Notes under the pieces: generated by a model
Seen by the model: the letters and a program-made list of their open reading frames with translations, nothing else
Told to the model about the DNA's origin: nothing
Databases searched by the model: none
Shown here: piece by piece, positions 1 through 64,000 of the stretch
Layout: each line of letters starts with the position of its first letter
Numbering within the stretch: the first letter of the stretch is position 1
Source: Salminus brasiliensis
Taxonomy: Eukaryota > Chordata > Actinopteri > Characiformes > Bryconidae
Length of the DNA: 64,000 nucleotides
NCBI RefSeq assembly: GCF_030463535.1
Contig: NC_132901.1
Coordinates: 3,677,640 to 3,741,639, forward strand
Direction of reading: 5' to 3'
Made by a program: the position numbers and the translations under genes

Positions 1-1313
1 AACGTCTGGTTATGACTGAGGACTCTAGCTAGCTAACAAGCTAACTAGCTTTAATGGAACGTAATGGCATTACTTTTATGCTAATGACCTTTAGGTATTA
101 GATAGTGTGGTTTTAATTAGCATGAGGGAATTGTAGCTACGTAGCTAAGTAACATTATGTTGTAATGAAATCCGACTTTAATGGTTTAAACGAAGTTTTC
201 AAATCTGAATCTTTTCACATCGCCAAGCTTTTTCACAACAGCCGTCCCCATTATCAGCCACTTCCCCGAAGTCAGCATTTCCGCCCTAGATGCACAAGAT
301 TACTACGTTGTTGTCATCTATGTCAAATATATCAAATATATCATGGATATTTGACGTAGTTTAGCATGTGATTGTGATTTTTGTCATGTTACATTCCCAT
401 TAGTTAGCTAACTAGCTACGTCTTTTTTCAGTCATTAGCACGGGGAGCTAGCTAACCATAAACACTCATTCACACCATAAAAGTTTTTCAGGACGGGTTT
501 GTGAGCATAAATGTGGGTATTTATTTATACATATTTCATATTTTTATTTAATAGCTTTTTGCTTTTACTGTGGTGATGTTTTCAGATATTTTTGAAGATT
601 TTTATTCTATATTTGAGTCTCTTTAAGTCTCTTTTCACTATACTGTTTTCCCCAAAATGACCCTTGCTGACCATAAAGCAGGGCTGATTTACCGTATTTT
701 AACTCAGTAATCAGATTTTTAAAAGGTTTAAAGATGACTGAAGTGCTGTTGATTCAGTATGAATTCAGGGTGCAAAAGTGACACTGAATCATCATCAGAT
801 TAGATAATTGATTCAGTGAATGATTCACTTAATTGATTCAATGAATTAACGTCGACAGTTTAGCATTGACTCAACATCTGTTTAATGACTGATTGCTATC
901 GGAGTAGAACTTGGTGGAGGAAGTGACTGATTGGAGAGGTAAGACTTGGCGGTAGTGCTAGATGACTAGTCTGGTCTCACGTCTGGTCTCACGTCTGATC
1001 TCACGTCTGACCTCACGTCTGACCTCACGTCTGATCTTCACTATTTTCTTTCCTCAAAATGACCCGTGCTGCATAAAGCAGGGCTGATTTACCATAATTT
1101 ACCTCAGTAATCAGATTTTTAAAAGGTTTAAAGATGTCTGAGGTGGCGTCAATCTTCTGTTAATGTTTTGTTAAATTTCAGGGTTGATTCAGTATGAATT
1201 TAGGGAGCAAAATTGACGATGAATCAACATAAGATTGGAATATTGATTTAATGAATGATGTTAACGGCGACAGTTTAAAGTTGACTTAACATCTATTCAA
1301 TACTTGATGAATG
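1..1313. other. Unit 1 5' spacer with internal ~270-bp duplication
   Basis: No credible gene seen. The first 600 bases are AT-rich with many TAGCTAGC/GCTAAC motifs. A block at about 631-893 (TTTTCACTATACTGTTTTCC... to TTTAATGACTGA) is repeated in diverged form at about 1034-1310. Both contain the landmarks AAAATGACC, CATAAAGCAG and TTTTTAAAAGGTTTAAAGAT. Between them, 967-1034 holds about five copies of a 12-bp CTCACGTCTGAC-type repeat. The 64-codon ORF at 165-359 has no recognisable content and is not kept as a gene. Confidence 0.75.
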
Positions 1314-4300
1314 CCTCATTAACACACAACTCAAACAGTAACACCAACCTCAATAGAAACATCATTAACACACACCCCTAAATGTTTACTAATCCAATTA
1401 GAAGCCTTATTAACACACCATCCCAAAGATTTATACTTCTTCCATTAGACACCTTAACACACACCTCAAACTGTAAAACTAACCCCGTCAGAAACCTTAT
1501 TAACACACGCCTCAAACAGTAACACTTACACCATCAGAAACCTCATTAACACACACCTCAAACAGTAATACTAATCCCATTAGAAACCTCATGAACACAC
1601 ACCTCAAACAGTAACACTAACCCCATTAGAAACCTCATTAACACACACCACAAACAGTAACACTAACCCCAGTAGAAACCTCATTAACACACACCACAAA
1701 CAGTAACACTAACCCCATCAGAAACCTCATTAACACATGCCTCAAACAATAATACTAACCCCATTAGAAACCTCGTTAACACACACCTCAAACAATAATA
1801 CTAACCCCATTAGAAACCTCGTTAACACACACCACAAACAGTAACACTAACCCCAGTAGAAACCTCATTAACACACACCACAAACAGTAGCACTAACACC
1901 AGTAGAAACCTCATTAACACACACCTCAGAAATTCCTACTAATCCCATTAGAAACCTCATTGACACACACCTCAAACAGTAACACTAACCCCATTAGAAA
2001 CCTCATTAACAAACACCTCAGAAATTCCTACTAATCCCATTGAAACCCTTATTAACACACACCTCAAACAGTAACACTTACACCATCAGAGACCTCATTA
2101 ACACATACCTCAAACAGTAATACTAACCCCATTAGAAACTGCATTAACATATACCTCAAACAGTAACACTAACCCCATTAGAAACCTCATTAACACATAC
2201 CACAAACAGTAACACTAACCCCAGTAGAAACTTCATTAACACACACCTCAAACAGTAAGACTAACCCCATGAGAAACATCATTAACACACACTTTAAAAA
2301 GTAAAACTAACCCCATTTGAAACCTCATTAACACACACCACAAACAGTAACACTAACCCCATTAGAAACCTCATTAACACACACCACAAACAGTAACACT
2401 AACCCCAGTAGAAACCTCATTAACACACACCACAAACAGTAACACTAACCCCATTAGAAACCTTGTTAACACACACCTCAAACAATAATACTAATCCCAT
2501 TAGAAACCTCATTAACACACACCTCAAACAGTAACACTAACCCCATCAGAAACATCATTAACACACACCTCAAACAGTAAAACTCACCCCATTAAAAACT
2601 ACATTAACATACACGTCAAACAATAATATTGACCCCATTATAAACCTCATTACCACACACCTCAAATAGAAATACTAATCCCATTAGAAACCTCATGAAC
2701 ACACACCTCAAACAGTAACACTAACCCCATTAGAAACATCATTAACACACACCTCAGAAATTCCTACTAATCCCATTAGAAACCTCATTAACACACACCT
2801 CAAACAGTAACACTGACCCCATTAGAAACCTCATTAACAAACACCTCAGAAATTCCTACTAATCCCATTGAAACCCTTATTAACACACACCTCAAACAGT
2901 AACACTTACACCATCAGAAACCTCATTAACACATACCTCAAACAGTAATACTAACCCCATTAGAAACTGCATTAACATATACCTCAAACAATAACACTAA
3001 CCCCTTTAGAAACCTCATTAACACATACCACAAACAGTAACACTAACCCCAGTAGAAACTTCATTAACACACACCTCAAACAGTAACACTAACCCCATTA
3101 GAAACCTCATTAACACACACCTCAAACAGTAAGACTAACCCCATGAGAAACTTCATTAACACACACCTCAAACAGTAACACTAACCCCATGAGAAACCTC
3201 ATTAACACACCTCAAACATTAACACTAACCCCATCAGAAACATAATTAACACACACCTCAAACAACAACACTAACCCCACCAGAAACCTCATTAACACAC
3301 ACCTCAAACAGTAACACTAACCCCATCAGAAACCTTATTAACACACATCTCAAACAGTAACACTTACACCATCAGAAACCTCATTAACACACACCTCAAA
3401 CAGTAAAACTCACCCCATTAAAAATTGCATTAAAACACACCTCAAACATTAACACTAACCCCATCAGAAACATAATCAACACACACCTCAAACAATAACA
3501 CTAACCTCAGTAGAAACCTCATTAACACACACCTCAGACATTCCTACTAATCCCATTAGAAACCGCATTACCACACACCTCAAACAGTAAAAGTAACCCC
3601 ATTAGAAACTTCATTAACACACACCTCAAACAGTAACACTAACCCCATTAGAAACCTCATTAACACACACCACGAACAGTAGCAATAACCCCAGTAGAAA
3701 TCTGATTAACACACACCTCAAACATTAATACTAACCCCAGTAAAACCTCATTAACACACACCTCAGAAATTCCTACTAACCCCATTAGAAACCTTATTAA
3801 CACACACCTCAAACAGTAACACTTACACCATCAGAAACCTCATTAACACACACCTCAATCATTAAATTTAACCCCACCAGAAACCTCATGAACACACACC
3901 TCAAACAGTAACACTAACCCCATCAGAAACATCATCACATGCCTCAAACAATAATACTAACCCCATTAGAAACCTCATTAACAGACACGACAATCAGTAA
4001 CACTAACCCCATCAGAAAGCTCATTAACACACCTCAAACATTATCACTAACCCCATCAGAAACCTCATTAACACACACCTCAAACAGTAACACTAACCCC
4101 ATTAGAAACCTTATTAACACACACCTCAAACAGTAAGACTAACCCCAGTTGAAACCTTATTAACACACACCTCAAACAGCAACACTAACCCCATCAGAAA
4201 CCTCATTAACACATGCCTCAAACAATAATACTAACTCCATTAGAAACCTCGTTAACACACACCTCAAACATTAACACTAAACCCATCAGAAACCTCATTA

Positions 4301-5696
4301 ACACACCTCAAATATTAACACTAACCCATCAGAAACATATTTAACACACACCTCAAACAGTAACACTAACCCCAGTAGAAACCTCATTAACACACACCTC
4401 AAATATTAAGACTAACCCCATGAGAAACATCATTAACACACACCTTAAACACTAACACCAGTAGAAACCTCATTAACACACACCTCAAACATTAACACTA
4501 ACCCCATCAGAAACCTCATTAACACACACCTCAAACAGTAAGACTAACCCCATGAGAAACATCATTAACACGCACCTTAAACAGTAACACTAACCCCATT
4601 AGAAACCTCATTAACACACACCTCAAACAGTAAGACTAACCCCATGAGAAACTTCATTAACACACACCTCAAACAGTAATACTAACCCCATTAAAAACCT
4701 TATTAACACACCTCAAACACTAACACTAACACCAGTAGACAACTCATTAACACACACCTCAAACAGTAACCTCATTAGAAACCGCAAACAGTAACACTAA
4801 CCCATCAGAATCTTCATTAACACACACCTCAAACAGTAACACTAACCCCATGAGAAACATCATTAACACACACCTTAAACAGTAACACTAACCCCATTAG
4901 AAACCTCATTAACACACACCTCAAACAGTAAGACTAACCCCATGAGAAACATCATTAACACACACCTTAAACACTAACACTAACCCCATTAGAAACCTCA
5001 TTAACACACACCTCAAACAATAAGACTAACCCCATTAGAAACCTTATTAACACACCACAAACAGTAACACTAACCCCATTAGGAACCTCATTACCACACA
5101 CCACAAACAGTAACACTAACCCCAGTAGAAATCTGATTAACACACGCCTCAAACATTAACACTAACCGCATTAGAAACCTCATTAACACACCTCAAACAG
5201 TACAACTAACCCCCTCAGAACCCTCATTAACACACCTCAATCAGTAACACTAACCCCATTATAAACCTCATGAACACACATCAAACAGTAACACTAACCC
5301 CATTAGAAACCTTATTAACACACACCTCAAACATCAACATTAACCCCATGCGAAACCCCTTTACACACACCTCAAACAGTAAAACTAACCCCATAAGAAA
5401 CCTCATTAACACACACCTCAAACAGTAACACTAACCCCATAAGAAACCTCATTACCACACACCTCAAACAGTAACACTAACCCCATTAGAAACCTCATTA
5501 ACACACACCTCAAACAGTAAAACTAACCCCAGTAGAAACCTCATTAACACACACCTCAAACAGTAAAACTAACCTCATAAGAAACCACATTAACACACAC
5601 CTCAAATAGTAACACTAACCCCATAAGAAACCTCAGTAACACACACCTCAAACAGTAACACTAACCCCATATGAAACCTCATTAACACACACCTCA
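1314..5696. repeat. 46-bp minisatellite array, unit 1 (~95 copies)
   Basis: Imperfect tandem repeat with a 46-bp period. Each copy runs CATTAACACACACCTCAAAC, then AGTAACACTAACCCCATTAG, then AAACCT. Point variants are common (ATTAGAAACC/ATCAGAAACC/AGTAGAAACC, CACCTC/CACCAC), as is a sub-variant with CAGAAATTCCTACTAATCCC. At 4383 bp it is the longest array in the window. The strand shown is C-rich; the complement carries GGGGTTAG in each copy. Short ORFs inside it are by-products of the repeat. Confidence 0.95.
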
Positions 5697-6751
5697 GAAA
5701 CTCAACAAATGTGAACCCATTACATCACATCTTCTCCACCTCATTAAAACCTTCTTATTTTACACCACCTTCATCATCTACTACCACACCACATCCTCCC
5801 TCACGAACAGACCCAATTCCTCAGATTCGGACTCAACCCAGAACAGTCCTCCTTACCAACTATCCTACATCACTGGACCTCTTCACTGGTTCAGAAGCTC
5901 GCTCTTCCACACTCTTCCCTAGACTACAGCTGATCTCTGAGCTGAAACTATCCCTTTAATCAATGCTCTCGTCTGGACTACAGTGGACTGATGCTAGCGT
6001 AGCACTCTTCCTGTAAACCATGTGATCCACCAAGCCCATTTCAGTCCACTTCAGGAGGTTCGTTTTTGGACACATACCTGGAAACATCTGCTCATCTCCA
6101 GACTTTTAATTCAGACAAGGCCTTGATTCAGCCCATCTGCTTCCAGCCATCCAGACAAGGCCTTGATTTGGGAAGCTCATACAGTATCTTCATCTAGATG
6201 AAGAAGCGTCTTTCAGAGAAGAGCACAGAAGGTGTATTAGCTTTGACCTTGTCCTGAAACAGTGTCCATATCACTACACACTAATTCAGCCGCTCAGCCA
6301 TACTGTCCCCGCCTCACTGAGAGACTACAGCATGTAGGAGTCAGCAGGAGCCCCGTCCAGTATGCTAGCAATACAGCAGTGTGTTGTGTGTATTCATGTT
6401 TGTAGATGTAGAGTGGTCTTCGTAGCCGTGTTCCTCAGCCGGGTCCATTACAATGCATAGCACCAGGAAGTTCCTACAGGAGGAACCTCAACGGTGGGGT
6501 GGTTAGCCTCTGAAGAACTGTAGCATTCAGATAACGGACTATATTGTAGATATTTTCAACAGCTGGACACGTCGGCCGACTGTATGATTCTGAACACAAT
6601 ATATTTATATATACATATACTGCCTGGCCACCACTAGATTTAACTTAGCAAATAGATAAGAGCTTCCCATTGGATAATTGTAGCCTTAAGCCACTTGCTA
6701 GTGAGGCTAACCGGCAGAAACGGCTTTAGTTGCTAAGGACAGAGATTTATG
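5697..6751. other. Unit 1 spacer downstream of the 46-bp array
   Basis: Unique-within-unit sequence with no gene I can support. It contains a direct repeat of AGACAAGGCCTTGATT (around 6113 and 6154) that appears to have mediated a deletion in unit 2. The 82-codon ORF at 5711-5959 has no recognisable domain and is not conserved as an ORF in all units. Confidence 0.6.
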
Positions 6752-7884: not shown

Positions 7885-8852
7885 GGGGGAAGAGCCTTTT
7901 CCTATAAAGCCCCCCAGCTCTGGAATAACCTTCCAGATAATGTTCGGGACTCAGACACAGTCTCAATCTTTAAATCTAAACTGAAAACTTATATGTTTAG
8001 TTTAGCTTTTGGTAATTAATGTTTCTTAGATAAGGGCTGCAGGTCCAGGGGTTCGCGGACCCAGGGAATTGTAGTACTCTGAGATGCTGGAGCTGTCGTC
8101 TCGCTGCTTACACGCGATCACTCAGGTTTGTTGACGGTGGAGCAGATAGATGCTGGTGTTCTCAGGGTACGCCCGTGTCCGTGTTACCTTCTGGCTCTCT
8201 CCTTTTAATTATGCTGTGATAATCAGACCTGCCGGAGTCATCAGACATACCCAGATGCTGATGATCAACATTCTCTGCACTCCATAAAATTCCTCTTAGA
8301 ACTAACTTCTCTCTCTTTACCTTCCCCGAGTAAATGGCCACCCAGCCCGATCTGCAGGAAGATTGCCCGCTGAGGTCCCCTCTACCTGCATCTAACCAGC
8401 TGCCACCTACCAGTCCAGCCAGCGGGTCCCCCCCAACCCGCCACCACCCATGGCTCACCCGCCAGCCGCTGCTGCCTGTTTGGTGGCCGTGCTGAAACCT
8501 AGATGGACTCGTGCCTGTCTGACACTATTAATATCACAACTATTAACTTTCTGTTGTACCTGGTTTGGTAATTTTTATCATTAATGTTTAAAACAGTCTG
8601 GCCAGAGGAGGATGGGTCCCCCTTGTGAGTCTTGGTTCCTCCCAAGGTTTCTTCCTCCAGCTCTGAGGGAGTTTTTCCTTGCCACTGTCGCCGTTGGCTT
8701 GCTCACGGGGGTCTTTGACGCTTCATGTTATTTCTTCTTTCTTCTCTGTCTCTGTTCTTTATTAAGTAATAATTATGTAAAGCTGCTTTGTGACGACAAC
8801 AGTTGTAAAAAGCGCTATACAAATAAATTTGACTTGACTTGACTTGACTTGA
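7885..8852 (+). mobile_element. 5'-truncated LINE insertion private to unit 1
   Basis: About 968 bp that is absent from the matching position in units 2-5. There GCAAAGACA runs straight into AATCATCTC. The 5' part (7888-8019) reads as the C-terminus of a non-LTR reverse transcriptase ORF, with GRAFSYKAPQLWNNLP followed by FKSKLKTYMF and a TAA stop. The rest is 3' UTR, including the widespread fish motif GGTTCCTCCCAAGGTTTCTT (near 8634) and a tail AAAGCGCTATACAAATAAAT followed by (TTGAC)n. A short GACAA at both borders fits a target-site duplication but merges with the tail repeat. It is probably a CR1/Rex1-type element; the exact clade is uncertain. Confidence 0.8.
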
Positions 8853-9067: not shown

Positions 9068-9610
9068 TTGTCTTAGCGATTGACTTAGCAGCAGTCGTAG
9101 CGGTTCACTTAGCGACAGTCTTAGTGAACGTCTTACTGGTAGTCTTAGCGACAGTCTTAGTGATTGTCTTAGTGACAGTTATTAGTTATTAGTTATTAGT
9201 TATTGGCTTAGTCACAGCCTTAGCTATTAGCTTAGTCATAGTCTTAGAGACTACACTGGTGATTGTCCTAGCGACAATCTCACTGATTGGCTTAGCGACT
9301 TAGCGACTGGCGTAGTTTTTGGCTTAGTCACAGTCTTAGCTACTACCTTAATCATAGTCTTAGAGACTAACTTAGTGATTGTCTTAGAGACAGTCTTAGG
9401 GATTGTCCTAGCCACTGGCTTAGTGACAGTTTTAGCTGTTGGCTTAGCATTAGACTTAGCCACTGGATTAGCTGATAGTATTAGTGACTAGCTTAGCAAT
9501 AGCGTTAGAGACAGTCTTAGCTATTGGCTTAGTCACATTCTTAGCTGTTGGCTTAGCGACAGTATTAGCAACTGGCTTAGCCACAGTGTTAGTTATTGTC
9601 TTAGCTGTAG
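9068..9610. repeat. 12-bp minisatellite, unit 1
   Basis: Degenerate 12-bp tandem repeat, e.g. GCGACAGTCTTA, GTGATTGTCTTA, GCTGTTGGCTTA. Because 12 is a multiple of three, frames stay open on both strands. The minus strand gives a Lys/Thr/Val-rich pseudo-protein (AKTVTKPVARTIPKTVSKT...), which I treat as an artefact. The repeat ends 29 bp upstream of the kinase start codon. Unit 1 has a local change to TTAGTTATTAGTTATT near 9179. Confidence 0.9.
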
Positions 9611-9639
9611 GGAATTGCAGGTTCTTCATCCAGCAGTAG

Positions 9640-11707
9640 ATGATGGAGCAGGAGTCTACAGCTACAGGTCATTCATACAGTTCTGCTGGAATCTGATCTT
9701 ACAGATCCACACTTTGTTGCTTTGATTAGATTTTAGATTTAGGTCTCGGGATCCATGTTTACTCTCTGTGATGTGAACTGGAATAAGCTCTGTTAGGAGC
9801 TTCATTAAGAGCTAAGAGAATTGTAGGCACTACCTACTCCATTCTAGACGTCAGTCTGTACAGACTCCAACCCTTATGTCCTGTATTTAGATGTTGGGCG
9901 GCGAAAGAGGAAAAGAAAGGAGGAGGGCAGCCAGAGGTTCTCACAGAGAACAACCGAGGTTGCCAGAAGTAAAAGCCCGGTAAGGAAGAGAAGGAAGGGA
10001 GAAGTTAGCCAGCCCAAGATAATGACCAGAAGACAGCGGAGCGACATCAAGCCAGGTTAGCTCATTGGCCAGACCACTGCACACAAGGAAGTGGTCCAGT
10101 ATTTAGTGCAATAGCCTGTGCTGCTAATAGATAGACTCCTGAGAGATGATGGGGAGAGAGCTGATGTTCAGCTTCAACACTGTTTGTTTTCCACAGACAC
10201 TTTTGCCTCTCTCTACGTCACTGGAGAGAAACTGGGAGAAGGAGGCTTCGGCGCCGTCTTCGAGGGAACCCGGGTTTCCGACGGCCTACAGGTTCTCAAA
10301 TCACCCCTCCAGAACTTCATTATCTCATCTGTTCCCTTTTCAGTCCTCATAACATTCACACCTCATCTCCTCTCTGTCTGCAGGTGGCCGTTAAATTCGT
10401 CACCAAGCGGGACGACGATGAATACGTCCAATGCGTAAGTGCACCTGGAAGCCAGGTTTTACTGTCCGATCACACATCACGCTCCCAGACTTCACTGCAC
10501 TCACCTTTCCACCAACCTTGCCCTGCGTTTCTGTTCTTCCAGCCTGTTCAGCTCAGGACCGTGCCCATGGAGGTGGCTCTAATGAACAGGATGAGCCAGC
10601 CACCCACCAGCAATGTGGTGAAGCTCATCGAGTGGTTCGACGAGCCTGAGCGCTACATCCTGGTCCTGGAGCGCCCAGATCCTTGCCAGGACTTGCAGTC
10701 CTTGATCGACCAGTGGGGAGGTTCGGTCAGTGAAGAGATAGCCAGGGACATCATGCTCCAGACGGTGGAGGCAGCAAGAACGTGCCACAAGCGAGGTGTC
10801 CTGCACAGAGACATCAAACTGGAGAACTTCCTGATCAACACAGACACCTCAGAGATCAAGCTGATCGACTTCGGCTGTGGGGACTGGGTCAAGAAAGGCG
10901 GATACCGTGAATTTGCAGGTAAACTGGAGTCTAGGGACGAAATTTACACGTTACCTTAGAAACATGAGTCTGAGAGGACCCATGTGTCCCTCTCATGGCC
11001 ACTTCACTGGAAAGTTAACGAGCTGGACGCTCTTCTTCTTTTATGTTCTCAGGCACCTTTCAGTACTGCCCCCCAGAGTTCTTTCTAAAGGGGAGGTACC
11101 ACGCCAGTCCTGCGACAGTCTGGTCTCTAGGAGTCCTACTGTTCAGGCTGGTTAGTGGACACCTTCCCTTTACAGACGAGCAGGAAATCGTGGAGGGGCT
11201 TCTGAGCTTCAAGGACCACCTATCCAATGGTGAGATATCTGAGAGCCTCCTCGAGAGACTCTTAGAAGTTCAGGACGACGTGTTCTGCACGGTCGTCTTT
11301 CTGAAATGTACTTAAGTATCTCTCTCACATCCAATCCAATCCCGTCCCTCTGCACAGAATGCTGCAATCTGATTAGGAGGTGTCTGCAGCGCAACCCATC
11401 CCAGAGGCCCAAAGTGAAGCAGATCCTGAAGCACGACTGGTTCCAGTGCAGCGTTCCTACCGAGGATCAGGTTAGCCATGGAAAATGAGAACGACTGCTT
11501 AGAGAAGAAACAGTAGAAGCTAAAATATCTAGAGTTGTGATCGAGGAGGCGAAGGAAAGAAAAACTACTAGAAATGAAGAGGAAGATCTGAATTCTCAGC
11601 ATTTCTGATCCTTAGACGTGCTTCCGTCTCCAATGCGTATCTCCTGGGTTGTGTTTCAGGTCCTGAGAACAGAGCAGCCTTCAGAGCAGAGGAGACAAAC
11701 CGTCTGA
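9640..11707 (+). CDS. PIM-like serine/threonine protein kinase, copy 1 (8 exons, 350 aa)
   Basis: Predicted Ser/Thr kinase of the PIM family. My model joins 9640-9667, 9891-10055, 10197-10291, 10384-10434, 10543-10918, 11053-11229, 11358-11470 and 11660-11707. All introns are GT-AG, phases agree and the frame stays open, giving 1053 nt. The start MMEQESTAT directly follows an in-frame TAG. Residues 13-60 are Arg/Lys-rich (GRRKRKRK, VRKRRK), suggesting nuclear targeting. The kinase domain spans about 70-326: GEGGFG loop 78-83, VAVK Lys100, helix-C Glu123, the PIM-type hinge ERPDP 156-160, HRDIKLEN 201-208, DFG 222-224, CPPE 244-247 and WSLG 262-265. All catalytic residues are present. PIM kinases are known to be active without activation-loop phosphorylation. 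The variable residues are R118 and H195. The first donor (GTCATT) and exon 3's donor (GTTCTC) are weak. Met54 (10022) is an alternative start. If the exon 7 donor is skipped, the protein ends EDQVSHGK. Confidence 0.87.
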
Positions 11708-11799
11708 AGTTGGCCCGTTTCATCAACAGGTAAAAATGGGTATAAGGAGCTCCAGCGTTGAGCTGTGGAGCTGTGGAGCTGTGTTTTATGGAATGATGG

Positions 11800-15657: not shown

Positions 15658-17064
15658 CCTCATTAACACACACCTCAAACAGTAATACTAACCCCATCAG
15701 AAACCTCATTAACACACACCTCAAACATTAACACTAACCCCATCAGAAACTTCATTAACACACACCTCAAACAGTAACACTAACCCCATTAGAAACCTTA
15801 TTAACACACCTCAAACAGTAACACTAACATCAGAAAAAACCTCATTAACACACACCTCAAACAGTAAGACTAACCCCATTAGAAACCTCATTAACACACC
15901 TCAAACAGTAACACTAACCCCATTAGAAACCTCATTAACACACACCTCAAACATTAACACTAACCCCATTATAAACCTCATTACGACACACCTCAAACAG
16001 TAACACTAACCCCATTAGAAACCTCATTAACACACACCTCAGAAATTCCTACTAACCCCATTAGAAACCTCATTAACACACACCTCAAACAGTAACACTT
16101 ACCCCATTAGAAACCTTATTAACACACCTCAAACAGTAACACTAACACCAGAAGAAACCTCATTAACACACACCTCAAACAGTAAGACTAACCTCATTAG
16201 AAACCGCAAAGAGTAACACTAAGCCCATCAGAAACTTCATTAACACACACCTCAAACAATAACACTAACCCCATTATAAACCTCATTACCATGCACCTCA
16301 AACAGTAACAATAACCCCATTAGAAACTTCATTAACACACACCCCAAACAGTAACACTAACACCAGTAGAAACTTCATGAACACACACCTCAAACATTAA
16401 TACTAACCCCATCAGAAACCTTAACACACATCTTAAACAGTAAAACTAACCCCATTAAAAACTGCATTAACATACACCTCAAACAGTAACACTAACCCAA
16501 TCAGAAACCTCATTAACACATGCCTCAAACAGTAACACTAACCCCATTAGAAACCTCATTAACACATGCCTCAAACAGTAACACTAACCCCATTAGAAAC
16601 CTCATTAACACACACCTCAAACGGTAAAACTAACCCCATTAGAAACCTTATTAACACACACCACTAACAGTAACACTAACCCCAGTAGAAACCTCATCAA
16701 CACACACCTCAAACAGTAACACTAACCCCATCAGAAACCTCATTAACACACACCCCAAACAGTAACACCTCATTAACACACACCTTTAACAGTAAGAATA
16801 TCCCCATGAGAAACTTCATTAACACACACCTCAAACAGTAACACTAACCCTATAAGAAACCTCATTAACACACACCTCAAACAGTAACACTAACCCCATA
16901 TGAAACCTCATTAACACACACCTCAAACAGTAACACTAACCCCATAAGAAACCTCATTAACACACACATCAAACATTAACACTCACCCCATTAGAAACCT
17001 TATTAACACACACCTCAAACAGTAACACTAACCCCATTAGAAACCTCATTAACACACACCTCAG
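15658..17064. repeat. 46-bp minisatellite array, unit 2 (~31 copies)
   Basis: 1407 bp of the CATTAACACACACCTCAAAC family, about a third of the unit 1 length. It includes truncated copies such as CACACCTTTAACAGTAAGAA. Confidence 0.94.
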
Positions 17065-18004
17065 GAACTCAACAAATGTAAACCCATTACATCACATCTT
17101 CTCCACCTCATTAAACCCTTCTTATTTTACACCACCTTCATCATCTACTACCACACCACATCCTCCCTCACGAACAGACCCAATTCCTCAGATTCGGACT
17201 CAACCCAGAACAGTCCTCCTTACCAACTATCCTACAGCACTGGACCTCTTCACTGGTTCAGAAGCTCGCTCTTCCACACTCTTCCCTAGACTACAGCTGA
17301 TCTCTGAGCTGAAACTATCCCTTTAATCAATGCTCTCGTCTGGACTACGGTGGACTGATGCTAGCGTAGCACTCTTCCTGTAAACCATGTGATCCACCAA
17401 GCCCATTTCAGTCCACTTCAGGAGGTGGAAACATCTGCTCATCTCCAGACTTTTAATTCAGACAAGGCCTTGATTTGGGAAGCTCATACAGTATCTTCAT
17501 CTAGATGAAGAAGCGTCTTTCAGAGAAGAGCACAGAAGGTGTATTAGCTTTGACCTTGTCCTGAAACAGTGTCCATATCACTACACACTAATTCAGCCGC
17601 TCAGCCATACTGTCCCCGCCCGGCTTTTATTCCATGTTGATGTTTGCTTTTTTTGTCTGTACTGTCCTTGATGTCTGTATTTCTTGGAAAATGAAATTCG
17701 GCCGCTCTAGACATAGCTCCAAATCCGACTATTCTAATGTAGCACTGTTCTGAAGCTAATAAGGCATTTAGAACGAGAGCTAGCCAGGCTAACGTGCAGC
17801 CTCCACACAGGGGGGGTAGCTCAACACAATATATATATATATATACACACACATACATACATACACACACTGCCTGACCACCACTAGATTTAACTAAGCA
17901 AATAGATAAGAGGATAATTGTAGCCTTAAGAAAACCACTTGCTAGTGAGGCTAACCGGCAGAAACGGCTTTAGTTTGCTAAGGACAGAGATTTATGGTAC
18001 AGAG
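17065..18004. other. Unit 2 spacer with deletions
   Basis: Shorter than in unit 1. GGAGGTGGAAACATCTG replaces a longer junction near 17424. One copy of the AGACAAGGCCTTGATT direct repeat and the sequence between the copies are missing. CCCCGCC joins directly to GGCTTTTATTCC near 17620, skipping segments present in unit 5. A (TA)n/(CA)n microsatellite lies near 17829-17868 and is the empty counterpart of the Tc1 site in unit 5. Confidence 0.65.
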
Positions 18005-43758: not shown

Positions 43759-44819
43759 GAACTCAACAAATGTAAACCCATTACATCACATCTTCTCCAC
43801 CTCATTAAACCCTTCTTATTTTACACCACCTTCATCATCTACTACCACACCACATCCTCCCTCACGAACAGGCCCAATTCCTCAGATTCGGACTCAACCC
43901 AGAACAGTCCTCCTTACCAACTATCCTACAGCACTGGACCTCTTCACTGGTTCAGAAGCTCGCTCTTCCACACTCTTCCCTAGACTACAGCTGATCTCTG
44001 AGCTGAAACTATCCCTTTAATCAATGCTCTCGTCTGGACTACGGTGGACTGATGCTAGCGTAGCACTCTTCCTGTAAACCATGTGATCCACCAAGCCCAT
44101 TTCAGTCGACTTCAGGAGGTTCGTTTTTGGACACAAACCTGGAAACATCTGCTCATCTCCAGACTTTTAATTCAGACAAGGCCTTGATTCAGCCCATCTG
44201 CTTCCAGCCATCCAGACAAGGCCTTGATTTGGGAAGCTCATACAGTATCTTCATCTAGATGAAGAAGCGTCTTTCAGAGAAGAGCACAGAAGGTGTATTA
44301 GCTTTGACCTTGTCCTGAAACAGTGTCCATATCACTACACACTAATTCAGCCGCTCAGCCATACTGTCCCCGCCTCACTGAGAGACTACAGCATGTAGGA
44401 GTCAGCAGGAGCCCCGTCCAGTATGCTAGCAATACAGCAGTGTGTTGTGTGTATTCATGTTGGTAGATGTAGAGTGGTCTTCGTAGCCGTGTTCCTCAGC
44501 CGGGTCCATTACAATGCATAGCACCAGGAAGTTCCTACAGGAGGAACCTCAACGGTGGGGTGGTTAGCCTCTGAAGAACTGTAGCATTCAGATAACGGAC
44601 TATATTGTAGATATTTTCAACAGCTGGACACGTCGGCCGACTGTATGATTCTCTACACAATATACTTATATATACACACTGCCTGGCCACCACTAGATTT
44701 AACTTAGCAAATAGATAAGAGCTTCCCATTGGATAATTGTAGCCTTAAGAAAACCACTTGCTAGTGAGGCTAACCGGCAGAAACGGCTTTAGTTGCTAAG
44801 GACAGAGATTTATCGTACA
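43759..44819. other. Unit 4 spacer downstream of the 46-bp array
   Basis: As in unit 3, with a slightly different ATTCTCTACACAATATACTT junction near 44648. No gene seen; the minus-strand ORF at 44535-44729 is not conserved. Confidence 0.6.
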
Positions 44820-46717: not shown

Positions 46718-46746
46718 GGAATTGCAGGTTCTTCATCCAGCAGTAG

Positions 46747-48814
46747 ATGATGGAGCAGGAGTCTACAGCTACAGGTCATTCATACAGTTCTGCTGGAATC
46801 TGATCTTACAGATCCACACTTTGTTGCTTTGATTAGATTTTAGATTTAGGTCTCGGGATCCATGTTTACTCTCTGTGATGTGAACTGGAATAAGCTCTGT
46901 TAGGAGCTTCATTAAGAGCTAAGAGAATTGTAGGCACTACCTACTCCATTCTAGACGTCAGTCTGTACAGACTCCAACCCTTATGTCCTGTATTTAGATG
47001 TTGGGCGGCGAAAGAGGAAAAGAAAGGAGGAGGGCAGCCAGAGGTTCTCACAGAGAACAACCGAGGTTGCCAGAAGTAAAAGCCCAGTAAGAAAGAGAAG
47101 GAAAGGAGAAGTTAGCCAGCCCAAGATAATGACCAGAAGACAGCGGAGCGACATCAAGCCAGGTTAGCTCATTGGCCAGACCACTGCACACAAGGAAGTG
47201 GTCCAGTATTTAGTGCAATAGCCTGTGCTGCTAATAGATAGACTCCTGAGAGATGATGGGGAGAGAGCTGATGTTCAGCTTCAACACTGTTTGTTTTCCA
47301 CAGACACTTTTGCCTCTCTCTACGTCACTGGAGAGAAACTGGGAGAAGGAGGCTTCGGCGCCGTCTTCGAGGGAACCCGGGTTTCCGACGGCCTACAGGT
47401 TCTCAAATCACCCCTCCAGAACTTCATTATCTCATCTGTTCCCTTTTCAGTCCTCATAACATTCACACCTCGTCTCCTCTGTGTCTTTAGGTGGCCGTTA
47501 AATTCGTCACCAAGCGGGACGACGATGAATACGTCCAATGCGTAAGTGCACCTGGAAGCCAGGTTTTACTGTCCGATCACACATCACGCTCCCAGACTTC
47601 ACTGCACTCACCTTTCCACCAACCTTGCCCTGTGTTCCTGTTCCTGCAGCCTGTTCAGCTCAAGACCGTGCCCATGGAGGTGGCTCTAATGAACAGGATG
47701 AGCCAGCCACCCACCAGCAATGTGGTGAAGCTCATCGAGTGGTTTGACGAGCCTGAGCGCTACATCCTGGTCCTGGAGCGCCCAGATCCTTGCCAGGACT
47801 TGCAGTCCTTGATCGACCAGTGGGGAGGTTCGGTCAGTGAAGAGATAGCCAGGGACATCATGCTCCAGACGGTGGAGGCAGCAAGAACGTGCCACAAGCG
47901 AGGTGTCCTGCACAGAGACATCAAACTGGAGAACTTCCTGATCAACACAGACACCTCAGAGATCAAGCTGATCGACTTCGGCTGCGGGGACTGGGTCAAG
48001 AAAGGCGGATACCGTGAATTTGCAGGTAAACTGGAGTCTAGGGACGAAATTCACACGTTACCTTAGAAACATGAGTCTGAGAGGAGCCTCGTGTCCCTCT
48101 CATGGCCACTTCACTGGAAAGGTAACGAGCTGGACGCTCTTCTTCTTTTATGTTCTCAGGCACCTTTCAGTACTGCCCCCCAGAGTTCTTTCTAAAGGGG
48201 AGGTACCACGCCAGTCCTGCGACAGTCTGGTCTCTAGGAGTCCTACTGTTCAGGCTGGTTAGTGGACACCTTCCCTTTACAGACGAGCAGGAAATCGTGG
48301 AGGGGCTTCTGAGCTTCAAGGACCACCTATCCAATGGTGAGATATCTGAGAGCCTCCTCGAGAGACTCTTAGAAGTTCAGGACGACGTGTTCTGCACGGT
48401 CGTCTTTTTGAAATGTACTTAAGTATCTCTCTCACATCCAATCCAATCCCGTCCTTCTGCACAGAATGCTGCAATCTGATTAGGAGGTGTCTGCAGCGCA
48501 ACCCATCCCAGAGGCCCAAAGTGAAGCAGATCCTGAAGCACGACTGGTTCCAGTGCAGCGTTCCTACCGAGGATCAGGTTAGCCATGGAAAATGAGAATG
48601 ACTGCTTAGAGAAGAAACAGTAGAAGCTAAAATATCTAGAGTTGTGATCGAGGAGGCAAAGGAAAGAAAAACTACTAGAAATGAAGAGGAAGATCTGAAT
48701 TCTCAGCATTTCTGATCCTTAGATGTGCTTCCGTCTCCAATGCGTATCTCCTGGGTTGTGTTTCAGGTCCTGAGAACAGAGCAGCCTTCAGAGCAGAGGA
48801 GACAAACCGTCTGA
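46747..48814 (+). CDS. PIM-like serine/threonine protein kinase, copy 4
   Basis: Exons 46747-46774, 46998-47162, 47304-47398, 47491-47541, 47650-48025, 48160-48336, 48465-48577 and 48767-48814. Predicted 350 aa with Lys118 and His195. It has the most synonymous changes of the set: CCA, AGA and AAA codons in the basic N-terminus, TTT for Phe145 and TGC for Cys225. The acceptor before exon 4 is TGTGTCTTTAG rather than CTGTCTGCAG and is still valid. Catalytic motifs are intact. Confidence 0.87.
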
Positions 48815-52348: not shown

Positions 52349-55300
52349 CCTCATTAACACACACCTCAAACAGTAACACTAACCCCACCAGAAACCTCAT
52401 TAACACACAACTCAAACATTAACACTAACCCCATTATAAACCTCATTAACACACACCTCAAACAGTAACACTAACCCCACCAGAAACCTCATTAACACAC
52501 AACTCAAACAGTAACACTAACCCCATTATAAACCTCATTAACACACACCTCAAACAGTAACACTAACCCCATTAGAAATCTGATTAACACACACCTCAAA
52601 CAGTAACACTAACCCCATTATAAACCTCATCAACACACACCTCAAACAGTAACACTAACCCCATTAGAAACCTCATTAACACATCTCAAACAGTAACACT
52701 AACCCCATTAGAAACCTCATTAACACATCTCAAACAGTAACGCTAACACCATTAGAAACCTCATTAACACACACCTCAAACAGTAACACTAACCCCATAA
52801 GAAACCTCATTACCACACACCTCAAACAGTAACACTAACCCCATTATAAACCTCATTAACACACACCTCAAACAATAACACTAACCCCATTAGAAACCTC
52901 ATTAACACACACCTCAAACAATAACACTAACCCCATTAGAAACCTCATTAACACACACCTCAAACAGTAACACTAACCCCATTAGATACCTCATTAACAC
53001 ACATCTCAAACATTAACACTCACCCCATTAGATACCTCATTAACACACACCTCAAACATTAACACTCACCCTATTAGAAACCTCATTAACACACACCTCA
53101 AACTGTAACACTAACCCCATCAGAAACCTCATTAACACACACCCCAAACAGTAACACTAACACCAGTAGAAACTTCATTAACACACACCTCAAACAGTAA
53201 CACTAACCCCATTAGAAACCTCATTAACACATCTCAAACAGTAACACTAACCCCATTATAAACCTCATTTACACACACCTCAAACAGTAACACTAACCCC
53301 ATTAGAAATCTGATTAACACACACCTCAAACAGTAACACTAACCCCATTATAAACCTCATCAACACACACCTCAAACAGTAACACTAACCCCATTAGAAA
53401 CCTCATTAACACATCTCAAACAGTAACACTAACCCCATTAGAAACCTCATTAACACATCTCAAACAGTAACGCTAACCCCATTAGAAACCTCATTAACAC
53501 ATCTCAAACAGTAACACTAACCCCATTAGAAACCTCATTAACACACACCTCAAACAGTAACACTAACCCCATGAGAAACTTCATTGCCACACACCTCAAA
53601 CAGTAACACTAACCCCATTAGAAACCTTATTAACACACCTCAAACAGTAACTCTAAGCCCATTAGAAACCTCATTAACACACCTCAAACAGTAACACTAA
53701 CCCCAGTAGAAACCTCATTAACACACACCTCAAACAGTAACATTAACCCCAGTAGAAACCTCATTAACACACCTCAAACAGTAACACTAACCCCATTAGA
53801 AACCTTATTAACACACACCTCAAACAGTAACACTAACCCCATTAGAAACCTCATTAACACACACCTCAAACAGTAACACTAACCCCAGTAGAAACCTCAT
53901 TAACACACACCTCAAACAGTAACACTAACCCCAGTAGAAACCTCATTAACACCAGAAACAGTAACACTAACCCCATTAGAAACCTCATTAACACACACCT
54001 CAAACAATAACACTAACCCCATTAGATACCGCATTAACACACACCTCAGAAATTCCTACTAATCCCATTAGAAACCTCATTAACACACCTCAAACAGTAA
54101 CACTAACCCCATTAGAAACCTCATTAACACACACCTCAAACAGTAACACTAACCCCATTAGAAACCTCATTAACACACACCTCAAACAGTAACACTAACC
54201 CCATTAGAAACCTCATTAACACACACCTCAAACAGTAACACTAACCCCATAAGAAACCTCATTAACACACACCTCAAACAGTAACACTAACCCTATAAGA
54301 AACCTCATTAACACACATCTTAAACAGTAAGACTAACCCCATTAGAAACTTCATTAACACACACCTCAAACAGTAAGACTAACCCCATTAAAAACTGCAT
54401 TAACATACACATCAAACAGGAATACTAACCCCATTAGAAACCTCATTAACACACACCTCAAACAGTAACACTAACCCCATTAGAAACCTCATTAACACAC
54501 ACCTCAAAGAGTAACACTAACCCCATCAGAAACCTCATTAACACATGCCTCAAACAATAATACTAACCCCATCATAAACCTCATTACGACACACCTCAAA
54601 CAGTAACACTAACCCCAGTCGAAATCTGATTAACACACACCTCAAACATTAAGACTAACCCCAGTAGAAACCTCATTAACACACACCTCAGAAATTCCTA
54701 CTAACCCCATTATAAACCTCATTACCACGCACCGCAAACAGTAATACTAACCCCATTAGAAACCTCATTAACACACACCTCAAACAGTAACACTAACACC
54801 AGTAGAAACCTCATTAACACACACCCCAAACAGTAACACTAACACCAGTAGAAACTTCATTAACACACACCTCAAACAGTAAGAATATCCCCATGAGAAA
54901 CTTCATTAACACACACCTCAAACAGTAACACTAACCCCATTAGAAACCTTATTAACACACCTTAAACAGTAACACTAACCCCATTAGAAACCTTATTAAC
55001 ACACACCTCAAACTGTAAGACTAACCCCATAAGAAACCTCATTAACACACACCTCAAACAGTAACACTAACCCCATTAGAAACCTCAATAACACACACCT
55101 CAAACAGTAACACTAACCCCATTAGAAACCTCATTAACACACACCTCAAACAGTAACACTAACCCCATTAGAAACCTCATTAACACACACCTCAAACAGT
55201 AATACTAACCCCATTAGAAACTTCATTAACACACACCTGAAACAGTAACACTAACCCCATTAGAAACCTCATTAACACACACCTCAAACAGTAACACTAA

Positions 55301-55607
55301 CCCCATTAGAAACCTCATTAACACACACCTCAAACAGTAACACTAACCCCATTAGAAACCTCATTAACACACACCTCAAACAGTAACACTAACCCCATTA
55401 GAAACCTCATTAACACACACCTCAAACAGTAACACTAACCCCATTAGAAACCTCATTAACACACACCTCAAACAGTAAAATTAACCCCATATGAAACCTC
55501 ATTAACACACACCTCAAACAGTAACACTAACCCCATTATAAACCTCATTAACACACACCTCAAACAGTAACACTAACCCCATTAGAAACCTCATTAACAC
55601 ACCTCAG
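52349..55607. repeat. 46-bp minisatellite array, unit 5 (~71 copies)
   Basis: 3259 bp. It contains higher-order runs: a block with CATTATAAACCTCATCAACAC and AACACATCTCAAACAG copies at about 52560-52750 is repeated at about 53280-53470. Near 55260-55480, several consecutive copies are identical, suggesting recent expansion. Confidence 0.94.
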
Positions 55608-56797
55608 GAACTCAACAAATGTAAACCCATTACATCACATCTTCTCCACCTCATTAAACCCTTCTTACTTTACACCACCTTCATCATCTACTACCACACC
55701 ACATCCTCCCTCACGAACAGACCCAATTCCTCAGATTCGGACTCAACCCAGAACAGTCCTCCTTACCAACTATCCTACATCACTGGACCTCTTCACTGGT
55801 TCAGAAGCTCGCTCTTCCACACTCTTCCCTAGACTACAGCTGATCTCTGTGCTGAAACTATCCCTTTAATCAATGCTCTCGTCTGGACTACGGTGGACTG
55901 ATGCTAGCGTAGCACTCTTCCTGTAAACCATGTGATCCACCAAGCCCATTTCAGTCCACTTCAGGAGGTTCGTTTTTGGACACAAACCTGGAAACATCTG
56001 CTCATCTCCAGACTTTTAATTCAGACAAGGCCTTGATTCAGCCCATCTGCTTCCAGCCATCCAGACAAGGCCTTGATTTGGGAAGCTCATACAGTATCTT
56101 CATCTAGATGAAGAAGCGTCTTTCAGAGAAGAGCACAGAAGGTGTATTAGCTTTGACCTTGTCCTGAAACAGTGTCCATATCACTACACACTAATTCAGC
56201 CACTCAGCCATACTGTCCCCGCCTCACTGAGAGACTACAGCATGTAGGAGTCAGCAGGAGCCCCGTCCAGTATGCTAGCAATACAGCAGTGTGTTGTGTG
56301 TATTCATGTTGGTAGATGTAGAGTGGTCTTCATAGCCGTGTTCCTCAGCCGGGTCCATTACAACGCATAGCACCAGGAAGTTCCTACAGGAGGAACCTCA
56401 ACGGTGGGGTGGTTAGCCTCTGAAGAACTGTAGCATTCGGATAATGGACTATATTGTAGATAATTTCAACAGCTGGACACGTCGGCCGACTGTATGATTC
56501 CATTTGGGAATGGATGTAGTGTGTCTCTACAATTCCAATGATGTATCCGTATTAAAGTTGCCTATAATGTCAGAGATTTGGCTTTTATTCCATGTTGATG
56601 TTTGCTTTTTTTGTCCGTACTGTCCTTGATGTCTGTATTTCTTGGAAAATGAAATTCGGCCGCTCTAGACATAGCTCCAAATCCGACTATTCTAATGTAG
56701 CACTGTTCTGAAGCTAATAAGGCATTTAGAATGAGAGCTAGCCAGGCTAACATGCAGCCTCCACACAGGGGGGTTAGCTCAACACAATATATATATA
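55608..56797. other. Unit 5 spacer, most complete version
   Basis: Includes the segment CCATTTGGGAATGGATGTAG to GGGTTAGCTCAACACAATAT (about 56499-56790). Units 1, 3 and 4 lack it, and unit 2 keeps only its second part. Unit 5 therefore probably preserves the ancestral layout here. No gene seen. Confidence 0.6.
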
Positions 56798-58403
56798 CAG
56801 TCATGCCCGAAAGTATTCATACCCCTGTCAAAGTTTGACTTAAATTTACTTTTATTTAACCAGAAATTATATTTTTACCTGGAAATGACACAGGCATCTC
56901 CCAGGAGATAACACGATGATGTACAAGAGGCATCATTGTGGGAAAAAATATTTCTCAGCTTTTATACACATTTGAACAAAAAGTGGCATGTCCAAAATTA
57001 TTCATACCCTTTGAAAACTGTCACAGTATATGGGAAAATCCAAAGTTCTATACCATTCCAAATAGTCCAAGCTGTTTTAAAGCATCCTAATTACCCTGAT
57101 TCATTGGGAACAGCTGTTTTAATCAACTCAACAGGAGAAAAACAGCAGCTCTCTGCAGTTGGTTTGTGGACAGTCATGGTTAAGACAAAGGAGCTCACTA
57201 AGGACCTGCGGCTGTGCATTGTGGCCGCTCACAAGTCAGGAAAGCCATATCAAAATGTTTTCAAGTTCCAGTGGCTACAGTGCAAAGTATTATTAAAAAA
57301 TACAAGAAGTTCCGCACTGTGGAAAATCTCAGAAGATGTGGTCGGAAGCCAAAAGTGACACCTGTGCTGGCCAGGAGAATAGTGAGAGAGGTGAAGAAAA
57401 ATCCAAGGATCACCACCAAGGCCATCCTGGTGAATCTGGACTCTGCTGGTGGCGACATCTCAAGGCAGACAGTTCAACGGACACTGCACACTGCTGGGTT
57501 CCACGGACGCAGGCCAAGGAGGACACCACTTCTCCAGAAAAGGCACACAAAAGCCCGCTTGACCTTTGCAAATGCTCATCTGGACAAAGAAGAAGACTTC
57601 TGGTGTTCTGTTTTATGGTCAGATGAAACAAAAATTGAATTGTTTGGCCACAATGATGTGTGCACCATTTGGCGTAAAAAAGGAGAAGCCTTCAACCCTA
57701 AGAACACCATCCCCACTGTCAAACATGGTGGTGGGAACCTAATGTTTTGGGGGTGTTTTTCAGCCAATGGACCAGGGAACTTGATCGCAGTAAATGGCAC
57801 CATGAAAAAAGAGCAATACATCAAGATTCTCAACAACAACATCAGGCAGTCTGCAGAGAAACTTGGCCTTGGGAACCGGTGGACATTTCAGCACGACAAC
57901 GACCCAAAACACACAGCCAAAGTGGTGAAGAAATGGTTAGCAGACAAAAACATTAATGTTTTGCAGTGGCCCAGCCAGAGTCCTGACTTGAATCCAATTG
58001 AGAATCTGTGGAGGGAGCTAAAGCTCAGGGTGATGGCAAGGAGACCCTTGAACCTCAAAGAGTTGGAGCTCATCACTAAAGATGAATGGGCAAAAATACC
58101 AGTGGAGACATGCAAAAAGCTGGTCAGCAATTACAGGAAGCGTTTGATTGCTGTAATAGCCAATAAAGGCTTTTCTATTAATTATTGAGAAGGGTATGAA
58201 TAATTTTGGACATGCCACTTTTTGTTCAAATGTGTATAAAAGCTGAGAAATATTTTTTCCCACAATGATGCCTCTTGTACATCATCGTGTTATCTCCTGG
58301 GAGATGCCGGTGTCATTTCCAGGCAAAAATATAATTTCTGGTTAAATAAAAGTAAATTTAAGTCAAACTTTGACAGGGGTATGAATACTTTCGGGCATGA
58401 CTG
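56798..58403 (+). mobile_element. Tc1-like DNA transposon, near-complete, private to unit 5
   Basis: 1606 bp flanked by TA on both sides (56796-56797 and 58404-58405) within a (TA)n tract. The corresponding place in unit 2 is empty. The 214-bp terminal inverted repeats (56798-57011 and 58190-58403) differ at only two positions. Each contains an outer GAAAGTATTCATACCC and an inner AAAATTATTCATACCC, the IR/DR arrangement of Sleeping Beauty-type fish elements. A single transposase ORF lies between them. High repeat identity suggests a recent insertion. Confidence 0.95.
57177..58188 (+). pseudogene. Tc1-like transposase with N-terminal frameshift
   Basis: Cut-and-paste transposase of the DD34E family. 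The ATG at 57177 opens MVKTKELTKDLRLCIVAAHK, typical of Tc1 N-termini. The frame shifts around 57235-57262, and the rest (FQVPVATVQSIIKKYK onward) continues uninterrupted in the +1 frame to TGA at 58186. The first helix-turn-helix is therefore split. The second DNA-binding half (RRPRRTPLL) is intact. So are the catalytic triad, Asp in VLWSDETK, Asp in FQHDNDPKHTAK and Glu in PDLNPIENLW, with the 34-residue spacing. The C-terminus reads NYRKRLIAVIANKG. An ORF starting at 57214 uses GTG, not a plausible eukaryotic start. Confidence 0.9.
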
Positions 58404-60741: not shown

Positions 60742-60770
60742 GGAATTGCAGGTTCTTCATCCAGCAGTAG

Positions 60771-62838
60771 ATGATGGAGCAGGAGTCTACAGCTACAGGT
60801 CATTCATACAGTTCTGCTGGAATCTGATCTTACAGATCCACACTTTGTTGCTTTGATTAGATTTTAGATTTAGGTCTCTGGATCCATGTTTACTCTCTGT
60901 GATGTGAACTGGAATAAGCTCTGTTAGGAGCTTCATTAAGAGCTAAGAGAATTGTAGGCACTACCTACTCCATTCTAGACGTCAGTCTGTACAGACTCCA
61001 ACCCTTATGTCCTGTATTTAGATGTTGGGCGGCGAAAGAGGAAAAGAAAGGAGGAGGGCAGCCAGAGGTTCTCACAGAGAACAACCGAGGTTGCCAGAAG
61101 TAAAAGCCCGGTAAGGAAGAGAAGGAAGGGAGAAGTTAGCCAGCCCAAGATAATGACCAGAAGACAGCGGAGCGACATCAAGCCAGGTTAGCTCATTGGC
61201 CAGACCACTGCACACAAGGAAGTGGTCCAGTATTTAGTGCAATAGCCTGTGCTGCTAATAGATAGACTCCTGAGAGATGATGGGGAGAGAGCTGATGTTC
61301 AGCTTCAACACTGTTTGTTTTCCACAGACACTTTTGCCTCTCTCTACGTCACTGGAGAGAAACTGGGAGAAGGAGGCTTCGGCGCCGTCTTCGAGGGAAC
61401 CCGGGTTTCCGACGGCCTACAGGTTCTTAAATCACCCCTCCAGAACTTCATTATCTCATCTGTTCCCTTTTCAGTCCTCATAACATTCACACCTCGTCTC
61501 CTCTCTGTCTGCAGGTGGCCGTTAAATTCGTCACCAAGCGGGACGACGATGAATACGTCCAATGCGTAAGTGCACCTGGAAGCCAGGTTTTACTGTCCGA
61601 TCACACATCACGCTCCCAGACTTCACTGCACTCACCTTTCCACCAACCTTGCCCTGTGTTCCTGTTCTTCCAGCCTGTTCAGCTCAAGACCGTGCCCATG
61701 GAGGTGGCTCTAATGAACAGGATGAGCCAGCCACCCACCAGCAATGTGGTGAAGCTCATCGAGTGGTTCGATGAGCCTGAGCGCTACATCCTGGTCCTGG
61801 AGCGCCCAGATCCTTGCCAGGACTTGCAGTCCTTGATCGACCAGTGGGGAGGTTCGGTCAGTGAAGAGATAGCCAGGGACATCATGCTCCAGACGGTGGA
61901 GGCAGCAAGAACGTGCCAGAAGCGAGGTGTCCTGCACAGAGACATCAAACTGGAGAACTTCCTGATCAACACAGACACCTCAGAGATCAAGCTGATCGAC
62001 TTCGGCTGTGGGGACTGGGTCAAGAAAGGCGGATACCGTGAATTTGCAGGTAAACTGGAGTCTAGGGACGAAATTTACACGTTACCTTAGAAACATGAGT
62101 CTGAGAGGACCCATGTGTCCCTCTCATGGCCACTTCACTGGAAAGTTAACGAGCTGGACGCTCTTCTTCTTTTATGTTCTCAGGCACCTTTCAGTACTGC
62201 CCCCCAGAGTTCTTTCTAAAGGGGAGGTACCACGCCAGTCCTGCGACAGTCTGGTCTCTAGGAGTCCTACTGTTCAGGCTGGTTAGTGGACACCTTCCCT
62301 TTACAGACGAGCAGGAAATCGTGGAGGGGCTTCTGAGCTTCAAGGACCACCTATCCAATGGTGAGATATCTGAGAGCCTCCTCGAGAGACTCTTAGAAGT
62401 TCAGGACGACGTGTTCTGCACGGTCGTCTTTCTGAAATGTACTTAAGTATCTCTCTCACATCCAATCCAATCCCGTCCTTCTGCACAGAATGCTGCAATC
62501 TGATTAGGAGGTGTCTGCAGCGCAACCCATCCCAGAGGCCCAAAGTGAAGCAGATCCTGAAGCACGACTGGTTCCAGTGCAGCGTTCCTACCGAGGATCA
62601 GGTTAGCCAGGGAAAATGAGAATGACTGCTTAGAGAAGAAACAGTAGAAGCTAAAATATCTAGAGTTGTGATCGAGGAGGCGAAGGAAAGAAAAACTACT
62701 AGAAATGAAGAGGAAGATCTGAATTCTCAGCATTTCTGATCCTTAGACGTGCTTCCGTCTCCAATGCGTATCTCCTGGGTTGTGTTTCAGGTCCTGAGAA
62801 CAGAGCAGCCTTCAGAGCAGAGGAGACAAACCGTCTGA
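60771..62838 (+). CDS. PIM-like serine/threonine protein kinase, copy 5
   Basis: Exons 60771-60798, 61022-61186, 61328-61422, 61515-61565, 61674-62049, 62184-62360, 62489-62601 and 62791-62838. Predicted 350 aa with Lys118 and Gln195, identical in protein to copy 2. It has a synonymous GAT for Asp146. If exon 7 were not spliced, its end would read EDQVSQGK rather than EDQVSHGK. All catalytic motifs are intact. The coding region is complete in the window; only the 3' UTR is cut. Confidence 0.87.
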
Positions 62839-63185: not shown

Positions 63186-63674
63186 GAGTCCCTAAAGTCT
63201 TTACAGGAAGCCCCAGCAGTGTGTGTAGCTGGGAATGGGTACACTTGACGTGCTTTGGCTTGCTTAAGGAAATTCCCATGTAAGGCTGGGAACTGTTTAC
63301 CCTCGTCTTAATGACGACGACTCCGTCTGATAAATGATGAGAGTGAACGGCGGATTCTGGAAGGTGGGAAAGTTCACCACTGGTTTAATCTGCTGCTGTC
63401 TTAGAGGCCTGACACCAGTGTTTGTGGAAATGGGGGTCAGCAGAGCTCCGAGAGGGGGGCGGGACAGCGGGGCAGTTCACCCTTACAGTGAAGATGACCT
63501 CATTCCCTTTAAGCGCTAAGCGCTCCCCACTTCTCGTAGAGCTTAGAAGCCTTTTTTTGGACAGAAGCACCAAACAGTGTATGAACCAAAAGCCTGTGAA
63601 GCGGTTAGCCTTTAGCTCACTGCTGCGCTGAGTAGAAGCTGCTGCTGCTGCTGTGTTGATTGTGTGTGTTTCAG

Positions 63675-64000
63675 GATTCCTCCTTTCCTCCATCCTTGGT
63701 TGCCTGGTTCCTCCAGAACTCATCCCTAGGTCATGCCATCTGCCAACTCCCGCCCCTTCTAGCCTCGACTCTGCCCCATCACTTTTTCCTCACTCCATGC
63801 CTTCACCTTCCCCTCTGGCCACACCTCGCACCGCTGCTCGAACCTTTGCACGTCTTCTGCCCTTAATCTGCGGACCCTCCTAGGCGTAGAGCTTGTTCCC
63901 CGAGCTCCGCTGCTCCCTCTCGCTGCAGTACCTCAGTTCCCTCGACCGTAGTCCATGCGCCCCTCCACTGTCAGTGCCTGGAGTAGAAGCCTCTGGACTG
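63675..64000 (+). other. 3'-UTR exon of kinase copy 5, truncated by window end
   Basis: The acceptor TGTGTTTCAG ends at 63674. The poly(A) signal would lie beyond the window. Confidence 0.6.

Follow-up and report, generated by a model that had tools for sequence, protein, structure and literature searches.

A head-to-tail array of five PIM-like kinase genes in Salminus brasiliensis with traces of probable exchange between units

At least one fish genome reportedly encodes very many PIM kinases, and we know of no accepted reason for such numbers in fish. An expanded PIM kinase family has been described in zebrafish (Rakshambikai et al. 2014, cited in PMC5763363); compared with that family, which is represented here by the title of the article only, the locus analysed in this work is one young tandem array in which signs of exchange are visible. 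In zebrafish, Region-2 of chromosome 4R contains three genes with PIM1/2/3 domains and thus resembles the present locus in that several PIM-domain genes lie in one chromosome region, but the accessible part of that study describes no array of near-identical copies (PMC11075544). For tambaqui, one pim-2-like gene is tabulated in the accessible part of PMC12189112. The accessible parts of PMC5041008 and PMC11192531 do not mention PIM, and in that of PMC5690287, the matches to a search for PIM are author names only. Among the matches listed for the literature on PIM families, which come mostly from papers available without subscription, there is no such array. The first-pass annotation of this DNA had pointed out that expanded pim-like families are known in some fish genomes, in agreement with the zebrafish literature as far as its accessible parts go; the array is a clear example of this already reported kind of gene-family expansion.

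Layout of the array and structure of the genes

We compared the window, that is, the entire 64,000-nucleotide stretch of the S. brasiliensis genome under analysis, with itself. A head-to-tail repeat spans the whole window, which contains 0 N bases, and carries five PIM-like kinase genes, all on the plus strand, spaced 10,568, 13,413, 13,126, and 14,024 bases from gene to gene. The first-pass annotation had proposed a five-copy head-to-tail array of nearly identical genes; all five copies could be mapped, and the 1,686-base genes show 98.8-99.4% identity to copy 1, far beyond chance.

10022..11707, plus strand: PIM-like kinase gene copy 1, open frame of 297 aa, GT-AG introns, TGA stop; PIM-1 match with E 1e-73
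10022-10055, 10197-10291, 10384-10434, 10543-10918, 11053-11229, 11358-11470, 11660-11707, plus strand: coding exons of copy 1
20590..22275, plus strand: PIM-like kinase gene copy 2, seven exons as in copy 1, frame open
34003..35688, plus strand: PIM-like kinase gene copy 3, seven exons as in copy 1, frame open
47129..48814, plus strand: PIM-like kinase gene copy 4, seven exons as in copy 1, frame open
61153..62838, plus strand: PIM-like kinase gene copy 5, seven exons as in copy 1, frame open

The seven coding exons, of 34, 95, 51, 376, 177, 113, and 48 bases (stop included), join into a 297-aa frame in each of the five copies, and all five have the six introns flanked AG/GT and the TGA stop, so that the earlier description of intact copies with open frames and GT-AG junctions applies throughout. 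We infer that translation of copy 1 starts at ATG 10022. The eighth exon of that description is not supported as stated: an eight-exon model that begins at the upstream ATG 9891 was considered and rejected, as its in-frame joining requires a 50-base purine-rich intron. An intron of 50 bases is below the usual length in vertebrates. A 3' UTR exon near 12545 of copy 1 is possible.

The units vary in length and divergence, and are built in the same order: spacer, 46-bp minisatellite, further spacer, 12/24-bp minisatellite, kinase gene. The window begins in an inter-unit spacer, base 5 matching positions 14381, 28243, 41653, and 51487, so that the array may run on leftward. On the right, the window does end in unit 5, as had been noticed, but only the 3' flank of this unit is cut, whereas the coding sequence of copy 5 is complete. 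The kinase array may, therefore, extend past both window ends. When 9 of the 23 frames of at least 80 aa in the unit at 5723-15657, along with one frame from unit 4, were compared with Pfam in search of other genes, none scored above the cut-off; the only match among these frames was HCV_NS5a_C, with an E value of 0.014, below its cut-off. The other 14 frames include some that overlap the kinase gene.

The repeats and inserts mapped in the units are the following (minisatellites and the unit-1 insert without strand).

1314..5722: 46-bp minisatellite before gene 1, 4,409 bases; TRF end 5696
15658..17089: 46-bp minisatellite between genes 1 and 2, 1,432 bases; TRF end 17063
29508..30354: 46-bp minisatellite between genes 2 and 3, 847 bases; TRF end 30347
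42918..43764: 46-bp minisatellite between genes 3 and 4, 847 bases; TRF end 43757
52349..55632: 46-bp minisatellite between genes 4 and 5, 3,284 bases; TRF end 55602
9070..9605: minisatellite of 12/24-bp repeats, upstream of gene 1, with counterparts upstream of the other four genes
24937..28220, minus strand: L2-type LINE of unit 2, with UnaL2 3' element; ends approximate
38348..41630, minus strand: LINE of unit 3, inserted as in unit 2, reading frame split; ends approximate
56798..58403, plus strand: Tc1-type DNA transposon, confined to unit 5, with inverted ends about 200 bases long; element ends approximate
7885..8850: insert of 0.96 kb, present in unit 1 only, with a short TTGAC repeat at its end

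The two 847-base minisatellites (29508-30354 and 42918-43764) are identical, and their repeats match in order (18 of 18); the remaining three 46-bp arrays have few repeat types in common with this pair or with one another. The LINE of unit 2 contains an open endonuclease/reverse transcriptase reading frame of 990 codons. Its junction sequences are identical in units 2 and 3, without a clean target-site duplication at the insertion junctions; the element is absent from units 1 and 4, and the corresponding site of unit 5 lies outside the window. In a search of the window for RNA families, nothing other than the UnaL2 element in each of the two LINE copies reached the gathering score. The transposase reading of the Tc1-type element is apparently split across two frames. 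A single transposon at 56501-58396 was considered and discarded, given that 56501-56797 is spacer, part of which also occurs in unit 2, and the start of the Tc1 element lies near 56798. Units 3 and 4 carry no insert of their own.

Two further features were observed among the spacers and inserts. About 100 bases of the unit-1 insert (8602-8704) resemble 13073-13174, in the 3' flank of units 1-4, at 86%, perhaps as copies of a common dispersed repeat. The spacers at 1-1313 and 51465-52343, which precede the minisatellites of units 1 and 5, show 92-95% identity to the other spacers, gaps counted, and are more diverged than the gene segments are among themselves.

The kinase, its predicted substrate site, and selection

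Residues 18-273 of the 297-aa protein match the Pfam domain Pkinase (8e-59), and the best match in a search of solved structures is PIM-1 (PDB chain 5o11_A, E 1e-73), with the entire kinase domain aligned and 121 of the 265 aligned columns identical (46%). This search yielded 64 distinct chains at 1e-30 or better, of which the best 60 were ranked here; the best 42 of the 64 are PIM-1 (41) or PIM-2 (1), with E values from 1e-73 to 1.1e-65, and the first non-PIM chain among the matches listed is MARK3, at 6.7e-36. The PIM-like identity assigned in the first-pass annotation is thus upheld. So is its assertion of full catalytic motifs: the catalytic residues of PIM1 chosen for the check, Lys67, Glu89, Asp167, Lys169, Asn172, and Asp186 (PIM1 numbering), are present at the aligned positions in 6 of 6 cases, and the DFG motif is conserved in the predicted kinase. 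The hinge reads LERPDPC in all five copies and fits LERPxP, the motif of PIM kinases being given as LERPXPX in the accessible part of PMC3729456.

The site that would bind the substrate is different. Seven PIM1 residues, besides the carbonyl of Phe130, are named as contacts of the pimtide peptide in the accessible part of the same source (PMC3729456); five of these seven are replaced in the array protein (Asp131 by Ser, Thr134 by Asp, Asp170 by Leu, Asp234 by Arg, and Glu243 by Thr), whereas Asp128 and Glu171 are retained. These two are all that is kept of the six acidic peptide-binding residues of PIM1 (Asp128, Asp131, Asp170, Glu171, Asp234, and Glu243). Furthermore, Asp239 of PIM1, which we take to be another substrate contact, corresponds to His. 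Because the substrate contacts of PIM1 do not define the PIM family, the loss of acidic residues bears on specificity. None of the replaced residues is among those that vary between the copies; the change is common to all five. The alignment, a single one, suggests an active kinase with a peptide preference unlike that of PIM1. It is conceivable, although we put this forward only tentatively, that the genes form a neofunctionalised PIM-like branch in which the basophilic peptide site was dismantled and partly charge-reversed, then kept constant by selection and exchange, and amplified for quick change of dose.

Only 2 of the 297 residues vary among the five proteins, 65 (Arg/Lys) and 142 (His/Gln). 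The variable coding sites lie in codons 7, 65, 66, 92, 93, 142, 172, and 214. Among the units, 8 of 893 coding sites are variable, compared with 31 of 792 in introns, 34 of 1,163 downstream, 6 of 416 upstream, and 32 of 739 in the stretch that holds the 12-bp minisatellite. Although the counts are small and pool the five copies, variation is lower at nonsynonymous sites (2 of 691) than at either synonymous sites (6 of 200; P 0.002) or intron sites (P 4e-7), and for this reason, we consider the protein constrained; synonymous and intron variability are alike (P 0.68). Homogenisation alone is insufficient to explain this pattern, because it would have lowered the synonymous sites too. The kinase protein is under purifying selection. 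Some of the copies could, in principle, be young pseudogenes that carry no visible damage yet, and one relaxed copy could hide in a test that pools all five; nevertheless, the deficit of nonsynonymous variation and the distribution of indels (0 in 893 coding columns vs 5 events in 3,150 other columns) argue against pseudogenes, which we deem unlikely. Variability is also below that of the introns (P 0.02) in the region immediately upstream of the coding sequence, but not significantly below that of the downstream region (P 0.11).

9606..10021, plus strand: region preceding copy 1, possibly its promoter and 5' UTR; variability below introns

Divergence and probable exchange among the units

Around the gene, the units differ pairwise by 0.85-1.60% (4,003 ungapped columns). 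Altogether, 139 sites are variable in 4,877 columns, of which 31 are informative, that is, divide the units two against three. Each of the 10 possible splits of this kind is represented among the 31 sites, and the best compatible pair of splits accounts for 12 of them, with 19 left over; hence, no single tree fits, and exchange among the units is probable. In a simple custom model of recurrent mutation (2,000 runs each), the number of conflicting sites was 1.0 on average and at most 5 with uniform rates, and 2.4 on average and at most 9 when 4% of the sites were 10-fold hot, compared with the observed 19. Once CpG sites and those in the minisatellite are removed, 7 of 19 fit the best pair. A PHI-like test gave only weak signs that incompatible sites cluster, and delimited no discrete conversion tracts; its P values were 0.30 with 1 site per window, 0.06 with 2, 0.04 with 3, and 0.17 with 5. 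Judged by the splits, the units have probably swapped sequence with each other.

Units 2 and 3 present a special case. They differ at 14 of 4,394 sites in the 3' flank taken together with the LINE and at none of the 847 in the minisatellite, compared with 62 of 5,967 on the gene side. Two other parts, the spacer that separates the LINE from the minisatellite (13 of 1,277) and the segment following the minisatellite (11 of 903), are as diverged as the gene side, so that low and high divergence alternate and the low part is not a single block. The unevenness is associated with a P value of 3e-7, for borders picked after the data were seen, and the longest difference-free stretch, of 1,409 bases, with one of 0.001 under random placement. 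Between the two copies of the LINE, 12 differences occur in 3,283 sites, 7 of these inside one 500-base stretch. Given the identity of the 847-bp minisatellites and this similarity of the LINE copies, an apparent recent duplication or exchange between units 2 and 3 is visible. Units 1 and 4 differ by 0.13% in the 1.5-kb 3' flank vs 1.50% in the 4-kb gene segment. Units 2, 3, and 5 have a 293-bp stretch that 1 and 4 lack, and a 218-bp stretch is common to units 2 and 5 only.

The site patterns fit repeated unequal crossing-over and/or gene conversion as candidate processes; it is possible that the mosaic units stem from allelic recombination before duplication, or from haplotypes mixed in the assembly. 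The first-pass annotation had left the choice between very recent amplification and active homogenisation. That choice can be narrowed here: the divergence around the gene is about 1%, exchange has indirect support in the 19 of 31 sites that remain unfit, and a recent duplication or exchange is visible in units 2 and 3 as well. Recent amplification on its own, in which five units were duplicated within a short time and then diverged independently with no exchange, would account for the 108 of 139 variable sites with patterns other than two-against-three, mainly variants confined to a single unit, and for the one LINE insertion common to units 2 and 3. However, it would require recurrent change at 19 of the 31 informative sites, against an expectation of about 1-2, and the divergence between units 2 and 3 is uneven; we regard amplification without exchange as improbable.

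An assembly artefact, already raised in the first-pass annotation, in which fewer than five real units would appear as five through their haplotypes, appears similarly doubtful: divergence of about 1% is within the allelic range in fish, two of the minisatellites are identical, and two or three real units in two haplotypes each could yield five versions, but the window contains no N, two haplotypes of one unit cannot produce five versions, and the sequences are five distinct ones because no two units carry the same combination of inserts and private SNPs occur in every one of them (20, 20, 9, 29, and 11 for units 1-5 in the 4,003 columns), which makes multiplication of one unit by the assembler unlikely and leaves mixed haplotypes of fewer units as the possible form.

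Proposed mechanism and implications

The reading that we prefer, and consider likely, is that these genes for PIM-like serine/threonine kinases are part of a tandem multigene array that was multiplied by unequal crossing-over, exchanges sequence among its units, and encodes a protein under purifying selection. Under this mechanism, 10-14-kb units would have been multiplied through unequal crossing-over of misaligned copies, misalignment being perhaps aided by the spacer minisatellite present in each unit, a role that is only suggested. Exchange from unit to unit, by crossing-over or gene conversion, would have continued after the multiplication, while purifying selection would remove changes in the protein. 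Each gene would be expected to yield an active kinase, with a substrate site altered from that of PIM1. According to the accessible part of PMC3729456, Pim1 is controlled mainly at the level of expression and stability; by analogy, the array kinase might be regulated chiefly by its amount, with copy number setting the dose.

The array offers five complete copies with scorable markers and a constrained protein. It gives a specific prediction of a changed substrate preference, and both the function of the kinase and the dynamics of its copy number would be directly testable.
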